A DNA stretch of 45,803 nucleotides from the NCBI GenBank assembly GCA_028280965.1, contig JANQKT010000042.1, positions 1 to 45,803 of the forward strand, in the 5' to 3' direction. A program made the translations under genes and the position numbers. Shown in pieces: positions 10,184 to 45,803 of the stretch. The notes beneath the pieces are model-generated. The model was not told the DNA's origin. It did no database searches and saw only the letters and a program-made list of their open reading frames with translations. The stretch comes from Phycisphaeraceae bacterium. Lineage in GTDB: Bacteria; Planctomycetota; Phycisphaerae; Phycisphaerales; Phycisphaeraceae. Positions within the stretch are counted from its first letter, which is position 1, and every line of letters starts with the position of its first letter.

Positions 10184-10260
10184 GTCTTAGCCGCCGCCAG
10201 CAAGGCGGCACGTGGGCAAGTGACGCGACGACGTGCCGCCTTGCTGGCGGCGGCTAAGAC
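10184..10260. repeat. Perfect 30-bp inverted repeat with nested palindromes
   Basis: Arms 10184-10213 and 10231-10260 are exact reverse complements, separated by 17 nt. Each arm contains its own small hairpin (GCCGCC-AGCAA-GGCGGC). It lies between the divergent zinc-ribbon gene and the riboswitch promoter. There is no U-tract, so it is not a standard terminator. Confidence 0.9.
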
Positions 10261-10281: not shown

Positions 10282-10310
10282 TTGCTCGCATACCTCTTTG
10301 GCGTTATGCT
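10282..10310 (+). promoter_or_regulatory. Predicted promoter of the cobalamin-riboswitch operon
   Basis: TTGCTC (10282-10287), a 17-nt spacer and TATGCT (10305-10310). Transcription would begin near 10317, a few bases before the first conserved helix of the riboswitch, which fits very well. Confidence 0.6.
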
Positions 10311-10322
10311 GCCTGCTGACCC

Positions 10323-10566
10323 CCAGGTGCCCTTTGATCCGCTTTAGCCGGCGGTCGGGGGGTGAAAAGGGAAGTGGGGTGACCGAATCGGGCCGCTGCC
10401 GGCACATCAACGCTTGGCAGTGAATAGCTTGCCCGGATCGGGATTCCCCCGCGGACGCGCCGCCGTGACGGGCACGTGTCTGGCCGAGTATGCCACTGGA
10501 TCGCCTGCAACGGGCGCTCTGGGAAGGCGGGCCAGATCCACCCGGAGCCGGAAGACCTGCCTGCCG
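10323..10566 (+). ncRNA. Cobalamin riboswitch
   Basis: The region carries conserved landmarks of the cobalamin (AdoCbl-type) riboswitch in the right order. The closing helix P1 pairs CAGGT (10324-10328) with ACCTG (10555-10559). GGGAAG (10369-10374) is followed by GGTGA (10378-10382) and AATCGGG (10386-10392). A CCCCCGC segment is at ~10446, GCCACTG at 10492-10498 and TGGGAAGGC at 10520-10528. The B12 box AGCCGGAAGACCTGCC at 10546-10561 matches 14 of 16 positions of the consensus as I remember it. A variable insert of about 45 nt follows P3/P4. A strong hairpin (GCCCGGA-TGG-TCCGGGC, 10566-10582) directly downstream may be part of the expression platform, but no U-tract is seen, so control could be at translation. 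The next gene starts at 10756. Confidence 0.9.
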
Positions 10567-10755
10567 CCCGGATGGTCCGGGCATGGGGTGACCGGATCGA
10601 GGTCCTCGCGAAGAAGGACGCCGGTTGCCTGGCCCCTCGCTGCATCATCGCATGCAGCGTGCTCTCGGCGGCACAGGCACGGTGCCCAACCTCTCGAGCC
10701 CACCTCGGTCCATCCTTCGCTTGTCCCGCGCGAGTCGGGGCGGAAAGGCATGGCT

Positions 10756-11574
10756 ATGCATTGTTTCTGGATCGGAGCCGCGGGCGGTTGTCTCGCGGCG
10801 GGCAGCGTTGGTTTCGCCGACGCATCTTTCGTTGACCACGTGGTGTCCTACACGCCGGGCACGGGCGTCGGCGGCTACACCAACCCCGACGCCGCGCTGG
10901 GCAAGCCCGGCGACGACACCGGGTTCGGGCTGCTAACCCCGTTCAACCCACACTTCTCAACCGATGAACTGGCACGCATCGGCGGAGGCGGCGAACTCAC
11001 ACTCCGCTTCGCTAACGAGGTGCTCGTCGGCCCGGGCCTTGACATCGGCATCTACACCAACGTCTTCCTGATCAACAACCAGGGCGGCACCGGCGCGAAC
11101 AACCCCGCAGCCTCATTCGGCGGCGACAGCGTCTCGGTCCAGGTCAGCGCCAACGGCACCGACTGGGCCGCGGTCGATACATCAACAACACCGTTCGATC
11201 TGCCGCACACGTTCTACCTCAACCCCGAAGCGCTGACCGCGTCTGCTTCATCACCGCCGGCCATCCCGATCGAGGCGGACTTCGGCAAACCCTTCGATGC
11301 CACATTGTCCGACTTCGACGGCCTGACATTCGATCAGATCGCCAGCCTGCTCAACGGCTCGGCCGGCGGGACCTGGCTGGACCTCTCGCCGACCGGTCTG
11401 GACGCGGTGTCGTATATCCGCTTTGACAACCCCGGCGACACCTTCGAACTCGACGCGGTCTCGATCGCCAACCACAAAATCGGCCCGGCCGTGCCCGAGC
11501 CCGCATCGTTGAGCCTTGTGCTTGTCCTACTCGCCACCACCACACCTCGGCGGGCCTATCGGCCGTCGAACTAA
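10756..11574 (+). CDS. PEP-CTERM surface protein under cobalamin riboswitch
   Basis: 272 residues. The start at 10756 is chosen because GGAAAGG (10742-10748) lies 7 nt upstream; the ATG at 10750 would be too close. A signal peptide (to about GFADA) is followed by FVDHVVSYTPGTGVGGYTNP, a DAALGKP segment, a GGGGELTLRF strand, and 'DIGIYTNVFL'. This layout recalls a class of secreted beta-sandwich proteins with 'aLG.P ... GGGG.l.l.F' that I remember from Bacteroidota and Verrucomicrobiota surface loci. The C-terminus has VPEPASL, a hydrophobic stretch and a short basic tail (PRRAYRPSN), a PEP-CTERM signal for exosortase-dependent surface attachment. It is the first gene after the riboswitch, and the next starts 15 nt downstream, so the two form an operon. 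A role in binding cobalamin or a cobalamin carrier is an inference from context. Confidence 0.88.
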   Translation: MHCFWIGAAGGCLAAGSVGFADASFVDHVVSYTPGTGVGGYTNPDAALGKPGDDTGFGLLTPFNPHFSTDELARIGGGGELTLRFANEVLVGPGLDIGIYTNVFLINNQGGTGANNPAASFGGDSVSVQVSANGTDWAAVDTSTTPFDLPHTFYLNPEALTASASSPPAIPIEADFGKPFDATLSDFDGLTFDQIASLLNGSAGGTWLDLSPTGLDAVSYIRFDNPGDTFELDAVSIANHKIGPAVPEPASLSLVLVLLATTTPRRAYRPSN

Positions 11575-11589
11575 CAACCGGAGAAAACC

Positions 11590-12174
11590 ATGCAACACGC
11601 AATCAAACACGTGATCGCCTCATGCCTGACCATCACGATGGCGGCCGCCGTCTCTGCCGAGCTGCTGCCCGGCTACTCGGCCGGCAGCGGGGCTAATACC
11701 TCGCAGGTCATCATCGATTTCGGCTTCCAGGGCGGCGACGCCTACCTGTTCGACTACCGTTACGACGGTGACGCTACCGCCGAGGACATGCTGCTGGCGC
11801 TCGACGCGGCCGGCGACCTCACGGTCCACCACCAGTTCTTCGAGTTCGGCGGCGTCTCCTCGATCTTTATCGACGGCTTTTCGTTCGACGGCAACAGCGC
11901 GGTACCGAGCTTCGAAGGCGCGGCCGGCGAGTCGTGGTCGTACTGGATCGTCGATGACCGCGTTGCCGGGCCGAGCTTCTATGTTTCCTCGCCCACCGGC
12001 GCGACCGACCGCGTGCTTGAAGACGGATCGATCGATGGCTGGTCGCTGAACATCTCCGAGTTCAACTCGATGGGGCTTGATCCAACATTCACTCAGCCAA
12101 CGGTCATCCCCGAGCCGGCAAGCGCGGCCCTGCTGATGCTGGGCGGGCTGGTGCTTGCGCGACGCCGACGCTGA
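11590..12174 (+). CDS. PEP-CTERM surface protein with DUF4430/transcobalamin-like residue pattern
   Basis: 194 residues with a good Shine-Dalgarno (GGAGAAAACC) before the ATG. A signal peptide ends near VSAE. The single domain shows an ordered pattern: DYRYDGDATAEDMLLAL (helix), a strand HHQFFEFG, then SIFIDGFSFDG, SWSYWIVDD and 'GATDRVLEDGSIDGWSL'. This follows what I remember of DUF4430, the fold of the C-terminal domain of transcobalamin and intrinsic factor ('..s.IdG ... gWmYyvNg ... gad.y.l.dGD.I.W'). It ends with IPEPASA, a hydrophobic stretch and RRRR, a textbook PEP-CTERM tail. It sits 15 nt after the first PEP-CTERM gene and shares its riboswitch. Surface binding of B12 is the leading hypothesis; the homology needs profile confirmation. 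Confidence 0.88.
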   Translation: MQHAIKHVIASCLTITMAAAVSAELLPGYSAGSGANTSQVIIDFGFQGGDAYLFDYRYDGDATAEDMLLALDAAGDLTVHHQFFEFGGVSSIFIDGFSFDGNSAVPSFEGAAGESWSYWIVDDRVAGPSFYVSSPTGATDRVLEDGSIDGWSLNISEFNSMGLDPTFTQPTVIPEPASAALLMLGGLVLARRRR

Positions 12175-12231: not shown

Positions 12232-13011
12232 ATGGATCACCGCCGCACACGCCATCCCGGTTTCACGCTGATCGAGCTGCTCGTGGTGATCTCGATCATC
12301 GCGCTGTTGCTCGCCTTGCTGCTGCCCGCGCTCGGCGGCGCGCGTCAGTCAGCCCGCGCGACACAGTGCCTCAGCAGCCAGCGCCAGCTGACAATCGCGC
12401 TCACCAATCACGCGGCTGAGCACGATGGTCTGCTGATGCACTTCGCCGAGCGCGAGCCGGACGGCGTGCAGTGGTGGTTCGGCTTCGAGCCGGGCGGGCC
12501 GGCCAACTCAGCCAGCCGCCCGCTCGACAAGTCCCGCGGGCCGCTGGCCCACTACCTCGGCGACGACATCGATCAGGGCCTGGCCTGCCCCGCGTTCCCC
12601 GACAACGACCCGGGCTTTGTCGCCAAGTTCCGCGAGCGCTCGGCCCACTTCGGCTACAACGGCGGGCTCGCCTGGCCGTTCCCGATCGGCAGGACGCCCG
12701 AGCGCATCGATGCGGTCGCTCAGCCATCCGGGGTCTTCGCCTTCGCCGACGCGGTGCACCAGGACTTCAGCACGAGCACGTTCTACGAGCCGCACACCGT
12801 CGCGTACCGCAGGCCGGGCAAGGTCACGGGGGCCGGACACTTCCGCCACGCCGGCCGGGCCAACCTCGCGATGCTCGATGGGCACGCCGGGCCGATCGAC
12901 CCGCCGGAGGGCGAAAGCGTTTGGGCAAGGTTCGGAGCAGGTGACGTGATCAACCTCGACACCGCCGACGGCGCCGGCACGCGGTACGGTTTTCATACCT
13001 GGACGCGATGA
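12232..13011 (+). CDS. Prepilin-like protein with N-methylation site and H-X9-DG motif
   Basis: 259 residues; start taken at the ATG 12232 ([10 protein letters not shown]...). The type IV prepilin leader is RHPG followed by [24 protein letters not shown], with cleavage expected after the Gly and the Glu at position +5. The rest is a globular domain ending with the H-X9-DG signature ([12 protein letters not shown], near residue 218), which defines a family of planctomycete/verrucomicrobial pseudopilins thought to be processed and exported through a type II-secretion-like apparatus. It follows the riboswitch-controlled PEP-CTERM pair by 57 nt, with a hairpin in the gap, so membership of that operon is plausible but unproven. 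No pilus or secretion genes are nearby. Confidence 0.9.
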
Positions 13012-14798: not shown

Positions 14799-16274
14799 TC
14801 AGATAGCGCGCCGGCGTCGAACAAACAGGCCGAGAGCGAAGCCGGCAAATACAATTGCGGCGCTCGGCTCCGGGACGGTCGCGACAAAAAGACCCGATGA
14901 ACCGTCCTCAAAGTCGAGTTCGAACAAGACCTCGCCTTCATCGTTGAAGCCGTCCGGGGTGATCTGCATACCCACGATCCGCCGAAGGTCTTCGGCCGCG
15001 TCGGGTGCGGCATCGAAGAGATCACCTTCCTTGGCAATCAGTTCAAGTTGGCCGTCGATCTGGACAAACAGCGCCAAATCGAATGCAGGCGGGAATGCAG
15101 CATCCTGGCCGTCTTCTATAAAGCTGCCAATAAACGCAAAATCCCCGTTGTTGTTTAGCGAGGCCACCCCGGCGCCGGTGATCTCCATCTCTTTGCCGTC
15201 AAAGGTTCGGGGGATATGGGTCTGCAGCACCAGGTCGATCTCGGAACCCGGCCCATCGGTCGGTCCGAACCAGCCGCGTATGATCTGGCCAGAGCCATTG
15301 GTCATGCTGCCCCGCAACAGGACATCGCCACGCGCGTTGACCGCCTCGGCGCTGGTCCCGGAGTTGAAAACGGCCCCGTCGTTTCGGCCCGGCACCGGGT
15401 CACCCGAGCGGCTGGGCGGGCCCAATTGTCGGACACCCTGCTCTGAGGCGGCGTAGATGAAGGTCTCTATGTTACGGCGGAGAGTGCTCCCCGGGCTCGG
15501 GTATTCCAAGAGCGCTTCATAGGCGACTTCGCCGGTATCGAGGATCGTCAGAACCTGGAGCAGTTGTTGGTACCGCCGATCCAACGGTGCCGCGGGCGGC
15601 ATATCGTTTTCGGAGGTCAATTGGACATGGCCTGCCCCGCCTGAGGCCGGCCCGTAAAGCGTCTGTGTCACAAGCGGCCCAAGCGTCGCGATGAATGCGA
15701 TATCACCCGCATCACTGATTGTTGGCTGGGAACCCGAGCGATTCAGAAAATTGATGCTTCCATTAAATCCCAGGTTCGGGTCGTCTCGACGCGCGATCAC
15801 TGTCGTCGGCGAGCCTGGCCCCGCCGAAGGCCCGAACACCGCGTGTGCAGCTAAACCGAGCGGGGAATCCGGGTTGAGTTCCGCCAGGAAGGCGACATCA
15901 CCGAATGCGTTAAGGGTAACGCCACGCTCGAAATCGAAAAGCGTCGTACCATCACCAAACCCCGGCGCGGCGTCTCCGACGGCGAACAGCCTCCCCAGAG
16001 CGGACCCCGCACCGTCGGTGGGCCCGAACAAAGCAGACGTCCCTTGCTCCGAAAGGTCCTGCAGCCCTGCGATAAAGGCCACATCCCCCGCGTTGTTCAG
16101 CGACGGCCGCTCCCCGAAACCCGTGTAAATCAGGCCGCCCGCACCCGGCGCGGCCTCGCCGCTGAGCGCGACGGTGCGGTAGGGAACACCCGCAGACACG
16201 GACCCGCAGATGCTGATAGTCCCCAACACCGATACAACAGCTCGATGAACACCCAACGGTTTCAGTTTTTTCAT
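14799..16274 (-). CDS. PEP-CTERM protein with tandem 'N-x-x-G-D-V-A-F' repeats
   Basis: 491 residues from the ATG at 16274, preceded by AAGAGGA about 10 nt upstream. A signal peptide is followed by about seven repeats of ~55-65 residues. Each has a core like SLNNAGDVAFIAGL, TLNAFGDVAFLAEL, TISDAGDIAFIATL, TILDTGEVAYEALL, AVNARGDVLLRGSM, SLNNNGDFAFIGSF and DGFNDEGEVLFELDF. This pattern (DUF7453-like, beta-propeller-like blades) is frequent in planctomycete surface proteins; a seven-bladed propeller would fit the repeat number. The C-terminus VPEPSA, hydrophobic stretch and RRRRAI is a PEP-CTERM signal. Each blade carries an Ala/Gly-rich loop with PSDGPGS-like spacing. Ligand unknown. Confidence 0.87.
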   Translation of the reverse strand: MKKLKPLGVHRAVVSVLGTISICGSVSAGVPYRTVALSGEAAPGAGGLIYTGFGERPSLNNAGDVAFIAGLQDLSEQGTSALFGPTDGAGSALGRLFAVGDAAPGFGDGTTLFDFERGVTLNAFGDVAFLAELNPDSPLGLAAHAVFGPSAGPGSPTTVIARRDDPNLGFNGSINFLNRSGSQPTISDAGDIAFIATLGPLVTQTLYGPASGGAGHVQLTSENDMPPAAPLDRRYQQLLQVLTILDTGEVAYEALLEYPSPGSTLRRNIETFIYAASEQGVRQLGPPSRSGDPVPGRNDGAVFNSGTSAEAVNARGDVLLRGSMTNGSGQIIRGWFGPTDGPGSEIDLVLQTHIPRTFDGKEMEITGAGVASLNNNGDFAFIGSFIEDGQDAAFPPAFDLALFVQIDGQLELIAKEGDLFDAAPDAAEDLRRIVGMQITPDGFNDEGEVLFELDFEDGSSGLFVATVPEPSAAIVFAGFALGLFVRRRRAI

Positions 16275-45631: not shown

Positions 45632-45803
45632 TCAGGCGCCCGGCCGACGGCGCAGGAGGCAAAGACCCGCCGCCGCCAACAGCGTCAGCGACGCCGGCTC
45701 GGGCACGCTCGCCGCACCGCCGGGCCCGGTGAACGCGGCGAAGGCCAGGCCGAAGTCCGCATCATCGGTGTCGTTGTCGCCGTCCAGGTCTGCTGCGGGG
45801 TTG
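45632..45803 (-). CDS. C-terminal end of a dockerin-like/PEP-CTERM surface protein (partial)
   Basis: The frame runs off the right edge; 56 residues and the stop are in the window. It begins in a dockerin-like repeat (NPAADLDGDNDTDDADF, then AAFTGPG) and continues with VPEPASLTLLAAAGLCLLRRRPGA, a complete PEP-CTERM signal. The sequence is very close to the end of the gene at 7237-8157, but with high GC like the rest of the window. The gene is convergent with the helicase (13 nt between stops). The N-terminal function is outside the window. Confidence 0.9.
   Translation of the reverse strand, partial: NPAADLDGDNDTDDADFGLAFAAFTGPGGAASVPEPASLTLLAAAGLCLLRRRPGA

Follow-up and report, generated by a model that had tools for sequence, protein, structure and literature searches.

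Organization of the riboswitch locus

The window, i.e. the whole stretch of 45,803 nucleotides of DNA that was analysed, contains a cobalamin riboswitch followed by three open reading frames on the same strand (Table 1), with intergenic gaps of 15 and 57 bases between them. A thioredoxin-reductase-like gene is found downstream of ORF3 after a gap of 181 bases.

Table 1. Features of the riboswitch locus (positions refer to the window).
Feature	Position	Strand	Description
Putative promoter TTGCTC-17-TATGCT	10282-10310	+	TTGCTC 10282-10287, TATGCT 10305-10310, spacer of 17 bases; from sequence and conserved placement relative to the riboswitch
Cobalamin riboswitch aptamer (RF00174)	10308-10578	+	60.7 bits (cut-off 31.5), E 1.1e-12, full model (1-189)
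B12 box AGCCGGAAGACCTGCC	10546-10561	+	inside the RF00174 alignment
ORF1	10756-11574	+	exported; domain likely of BtuH type; VPEP C-terminal tail; alternative start 10750
ORF2	11590-12174	+	PEP-CTERM protein; predicted (model) intrinsic factor/transcobalamin beta-domain fold
ORF3	12232-13011	+	pseudopilin-like; N-methylation motif, DUF1559 start, H-X9-DG-like region

The riboswitch before ORF1 is real, and it is the only RF00174 match in the genome of 4.16 Mb. A reading made earlier from the sequence alone had claimed a cobalamin riboswitch and a B12 box that agrees with the consensus at 14 of 16 positions; the comparison with RF00174 was run and both claims held. The promoter proposed in the same reading is present as a pair of hexamers, which are weak judged by consensus (7 of 12 positions), and a promoter scan reported no site above threshold, this pair included. 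The promoter is still plausible because its placement is conserved. When the best -35/-10 pair was located at 41 homologous loci, it ended -1 to +8 from the start of the riboswitch in 33 of them, and loci of the same genus carry the similar hexamers TTGCCT/TATGCT and TTGCCA/TATGCT at the equivalent position.

The expression platform in the leader was not identified, neither by a terminator scan, which found no intrinsic terminators between the riboswitch and ORF1, nor by folding, which gave no significant structure and none that clearly hides the Shine-Dalgarno sequence. Just within ORF1 a hairpin is followed by a T-rich stretch (10805-10823, + strand), which is at chance level. Immediately upstream of the promoter there is a perfect inverted repeat with two arms of 24 bases (CTTAGCCGCCGCCAGCAAGGCGGC, 10186-10258). 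Allowing up to 3 mismatches, the window holds no second copy, and the loci of other genomes have none either. It could represent a terminator for the flanking genes or a small mobile element.

The C-termini of ORF1 and ORF2 consist of a VPEP or IPEP motif, a hydrophobic stretch and an Arg-rich tail. ORF2 passes the PEP-CTERM model TIGR02595 with 21.4 bits (cut-off 16), while ORF1 remains below this cut-off with 12.7 bits despite the resemblance of its tail to that of ORF2. The earlier claim of two exported PEP-CTERM proteins downstream of the riboswitch held with respect to the tails, and with respect to the model for ORF2 only. Two other tails of the PEP-CTERM type occur in the window (14799-16199 and 45632-45802, both on the - strand), without a link to a riboswitch. 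The extent of the operon as first proposed, 10282-12174, held in part, as the third gene continues it to 13011.

ORF3 scores above the cut-off for both PF07963 and PF07596. Among the 41 riboswitch loci examined, the cluster of pseudopilin-like homologues has 35 members; a pseudopilin-like gene lies downstream in most of these loci, which belong to several families, and also in named records. In some of the 41 loci it is the first called gene after the riboswitch. We therefore regard ORF3 as a likely part of the riboswitch operon, which extends the unit beyond ORF1 and ORF2. A cluster of small proteins is often encoded downstream of the pseudopilin gene (loci L039, L042, L045, L050, L061, L065 and L069), and some of them are cysteine-rich and resemble a BFD-type [2Fe-2S] protein (e.g. 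MKIDRCVCTQQSF...).

Relationships of ORF1 and ORF2

To relate ORF1 to proteins of known structure, a family profile (A2) was made from ORF1 and its homologues in the equivalent riboswitch slot of other genomes. Against PDB sequences this profile found BtuG1 of B. thetaiotaomicron (8blw_B, residues 390-659) with an E-value of 2e-18 and BtuH2 (7biz_A) with an E-value of 1e-9. One single member of the family, from locus L049, matches both the BtuG1 and the BtuH2 chains on its own (E 8.5e-18), and in a profile-profile comparison the close subfamily of ORF1 (A3) aligns with the group of this member (A5) at a probability of 99.3%. The sequence of ORF1 alone had no match in the PDB, and the A3 profile retrieved only dockerin-like tails from PDB sequences. 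The link between ORF1 and BtuH at the sequence level therefore runs via intermediate sequences.

Further support comes from the AlphaFold model of ORF1 (pLDDT 87.7), for which the top structural matches are BtuH2 (7biz_B, Z 10.3) and BtuG1 (8blw_B, Z 10.1). The next fold class, lectin-like modules of the CBM32/F5-8C type, reaches Z-scores of up to 8.9, so that the margin in favor of the BtuH fold is modest. In a Foldseek search with the same model 8blw was the sole match below 0.001.

BtuH2 binds B12 through its BtuH domain, with contacts by Gln333, Asn399 (to the phosphate), His476, Tyr510, Trp511 and Trp577 (PMC8941943). Asn102 of ORF1, which is near-invariant in the family, aligns with the phosphate-contacting Asn399. 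This is the only one of the six contacts that was found to be conserved: Gln333 and Trp577 show no conservation in the ORF1 family, and His476, Tyr510 and Trp511 could not be aligned reliably. The ligand site is thus supported only in part. A relationship between the ORF1 family and BtuH is likely, as fold and ancestry are supported, with no binding data at hand.

For ORF2 the structural result is clearer. Its model (pLDDT 81.5) finds as its top 15 structural matches the beta domains of intrinsic factor, transcobalamin and haptocorrin together with the bacterial structure 3u7z, with Z-scores of 12.0-13.5 and 96-106 residues superposed at 1.9-2.5 A; the best-scoring other fold has a Z-score of 6.5. 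Foldseek also ranks the beta domains and 3u7z first, with probabilities near 1.0 and E-values only near 0.01. Comparison of the ORF2 family with PDB sequences and Pfam gave nothing useful, and the sequence families report the PEP-CTERM tail only. Since the Pfam family DUF4430 matched none of 25 ORF2-family members even at an E-value of 10, the relation to the beta domain rests on the fold alone. We consequently describe ORF2 as beta-domain-like by its predicted fold and do not count it as a DUF4430 member; descent is not shown and binding data are absent.

Conservation across the order and outer-membrane receptors

To see how general the arrangement is, 151 genomes of the order were surveyed, 136 of which are good genomes. 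The RF00174 riboswitch is present in 143 of the 151. Genes of the ORF1 family lie no more than 3.5 kb behind a listed riboswitch in 76 of 85 cases, at a median distance of 182 bases. For the ORF2 family this applies to at least 20 of 52 genes; the number is a lower bound, as several more lie behind AdoCbl-type (RF01482) or weak switches outside the RF00174 list. In another family of the order (loci L087, L093 and L098-L101) an ORF2-family gene stands alone behind a cobalamin riboswitch, which there is either an RF01482 match just below the cut-off or a weak cobalamin match.

ORF1 itself as query gave no match in named genomes. With a relative's protein as query, all 11 domain-matching loci in named Phycisphaerales or Phycisphaeraceae records have a riboswitch directly upstream, and the usual order is the switch, an ORF1-like protein, a beta-propeller-like protein and a pseudopilin-like protein. 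In other genomes the same riboswitch slot is occupied by DUF4465 proteins (the BtuJ family; E 1e-53 to 3e-33), most of them with a PEP-CTERM tail. B12 binding has been shown for members of the DUF4465 family from eight distant sources (PMC13398666). One genome (G006) has a second switch before genes that, by names assigned by eye, resemble an adenosyltransferase, BtuF, an ATPase and BtuC. At locus L044 (genome G034) two riboswitches are arranged in tandem, one before a pseudopilin-like gene and the next before a BtuB-like receptor gene.

The genome under study encodes MetH (1271.8 bits), a cobalamin adenosyltransferase and a BtuC-like permease adjoining a periplasmic binding protein, and CbiC was not found in it. 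The source bacterium is therefore likely to be a B12 consumer and probably an auxotroph.

The sequence-only reading had proposed that the system does not rely on a TonB-type receptor at this locus. This held: there is no TonB receptor at the locus of ORF1, ORF2 and ORF3. The two Plug-domain receptors of the genome score as one of the heme type and one of the Xanthomonas/Caulobacter type, and neither as BtuB. Of these, the receptor of 713 amino acids on contig C227 was considered as BtuB and rejected (225 bits with the heme receptor model compared to 75 with the TonB-B12 model); its gene adjoins a TonB-like gene and does not lie behind a riboswitch.

In 95 of the 151 genomes (88 of the 136 good ones) no TonB Plug domain was found at all. 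Of these 95, 91 keep the riboswitch and 65 have a gene of the ORF1 or the ORF2 family, and one genome that is 99% complete (G013) carries the same three-gene operon without a Plug match. Missing Plug matches could also reflect divergent receptors. Full-length BtuB-like receptors were seen in just six of the 151 genomes, with scores of 270-291 bits that do not reach the curated cut-off (599.7). In five of the six cases a riboswitch immediately precedes the gene; the remaining gene sits at a contig edge. None of these six genomes has an ORF1- or ORF2-family gene. The chance of this is 0.002 if genomes are assumed to be independent, an assumption that fails, as four of the six share one genus. 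The simplest reading is replacement, with one regulatory slot holding either BtuB or surface catchers.

Proposed function, alternatives and known systems

We propose that the operon encodes B12-repressed, exosortase-anchored surface scavengers of B12 that stand in for or precede BtuB. We consider this likely, with a probability of about 0.8, while binding, regulation and anchoring remain inferred. As long as cellular cobalamin is sufficient, the riboswitch would keep the three-gene operon off. When cobalamin becomes scarce, the BtuH-like ORF1 and the stand-alone, beta-domain-like ORF2 would be exported. An exosortase is thought to process both proteins and to anchor them at the outer surface via their PEP-CTERM tails, where they may bind corrinoids and hand them on. 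B12 would then enter the periplasm by an inferred outer-membrane route, be taken up by a BtuFC-type ABC transporter and serve MetH. The pseudopilin ORF3, encoded on the same transcript, probably aids the assembly or positioning of the capture apparatus. The surface capture of B12 or a related corrinoid, which had also been suggested in the sequence-only reading, is supported by the link to the BtuH family, the beta-domain fold and the DUF4465 substitutes; the finding that most genes of the ORF1 family in related genomes lie behind the riboswitch points the same way.

One alternative, which we consider rather unlikely, is an accessory role, in which a TonB-dependent receptor with its gene at another locus, e.g. 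the receptor on contig C227, would take over B12 from the surface proteins. The presence of two Plug-domain receptors in the genome is in agreement with this, as is the fact that BtuG and BtuH of Bacteroides are accessory to BtuB (PMC10404256, PMC8941943). Against it stand the heme-like scores of the C227 receptor and the absence of a riboswitch upstream of its gene, as well as the genome with the same operon and no Plug match and the retention of the riboswitch in nearly all Plug-less genomes. A different objection would be that a B12-regulated operon does another job, such as adhesion, envelope remodelling or the import of cobalt or a different tetrapyrrole, and that the domain likenesses merely reflect the common beta-sandwich and beta-grasp folds. 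While one must keep in mind that no binding has been shown for ORF1 or ORF2, that lectin modules of the CBM32/F5-8C type come close to ORF1 in fold (Z up to 8.9) and that PEP-CTERM proteins are abundant in these genomes, we regard this as very unlikely. The operon behind this B12 riboswitch encodes two unrelated domains that are both best matched structurally by B12-binding proteins, and DUF4465 and beta-propeller-like proteins replace ORF1 and ORF2 in other genomes, which makes a chance resemblance improbable.

It might further be argued that the riboswitch controls ORF1 and ORF2 only, and that the pseudopilin and later genes are functionally unlinked neighbours. The 57-base gap before ORF3 would fit this, and DUF1559-type genes are common in planctomycetes. 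The recurrence of the pseudopilin-like gene at most of the 41 loci across families, sometimes directly after the switch, speaks against it, and we consider this version unlikely.

The preferred reading of surface scavengers can be extended to a bolder one, namely that Phycisphaerae bring B12 across the outer membrane with neither BtuB nor any other TonB-dependent receptor involved. The apparatus would then comprise riboswitch-controlled, exosortase-anchored binders that are BtuH-like, intrinsic factor-like, BtuJ-like and propeller-like, together with a dedicated pseudopilin. As a whole, we would place this slightly on the doubtful side. B12 is larger than the roughly 600 Da that porins usually let through, which raises the question how it crosses the outer membrane where no TonB receptor is present. 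For planctomycetes, it has been reported that the pili-like fibres of their crateriform structures bind dextran and that macromolecules are taken up into the periplasm (PMC5394234), which makes a route without TonB conceivable. The apparatus might even be tied to these fibres and crateriform structures, for which no link has been shown.

In the open-licence literature searched we found no report that connects cobalamin uptake with PEP-CTERM proteins or with surface proteins of planctomycetes. The known surface systems for B12 capture are lipoproteins of Bacteroides that act with BtuB (BtuG, BtuH and BtuJ: PMC6143338, PMC8941943, PMC12751083). The btu loci of Bacteroides, with the surface lipoproteins BtuG, BtuH, BtuJ (DUF4465) and BtuK, share with the planctomycete loci the control by a cobalamin riboswitch and the encoding, at one locus, of several surface proteins of unrelated types that bind B12, where binding is only inferred in our case; the BtuH-type domain, DUF4465 and beta-propellers all recur. 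The differences are the PEP-CTERM tails in place of lipoprotein anchors, the absence of BtuB from the locus and of a recognised BtuB from most genomes of the order, and the addition of a pseudopilin-like partner and of the intrinsic factor/transcobalamin-like domain of ORF2. A whole planctomycete order appears to rely on catchers with a different kind of anchor, and in most cases no BtuB can be recognised. The BtuB-BtuCDF system of E. coli serves the same need to import B12 and shares with the genome studied here a permease of the BtuC kind. Full-length BtuB-like receptors are limited to six of the 151 genomes, and in at least five of these the same riboswitch precedes the gene.

The remaining comparison leads to animals. 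According to its model, ORF2 shares the fold of the C-terminal beta domain that is found in intrinsic factor, transcobalamin and haptocorrin, with 100-106 residues superposed at about 2.0-2.5 A, but it is a bacterial protein that lacks the alpha6/alpha6 barrel, bears a PEP-CTERM tail and shares only 6-16% identity with these carriers. The same fold is seen in 3u7z (Ruminococcus gnavus RUMGNA_00854, Z 12.3), likewise a stand-alone bacterial domain, which is annotated merely as a putative metal-binding protein. One of the candidate catchers would accordingly be a bacterial protein with the predicted fold of a domain of intrinsic factor, the B12 carrier of the human stomach. ORF1 and ORF2 are candidates for B12 binding that can be tested directly, and the finding is relevant to how the B12 carriers of animals arose.
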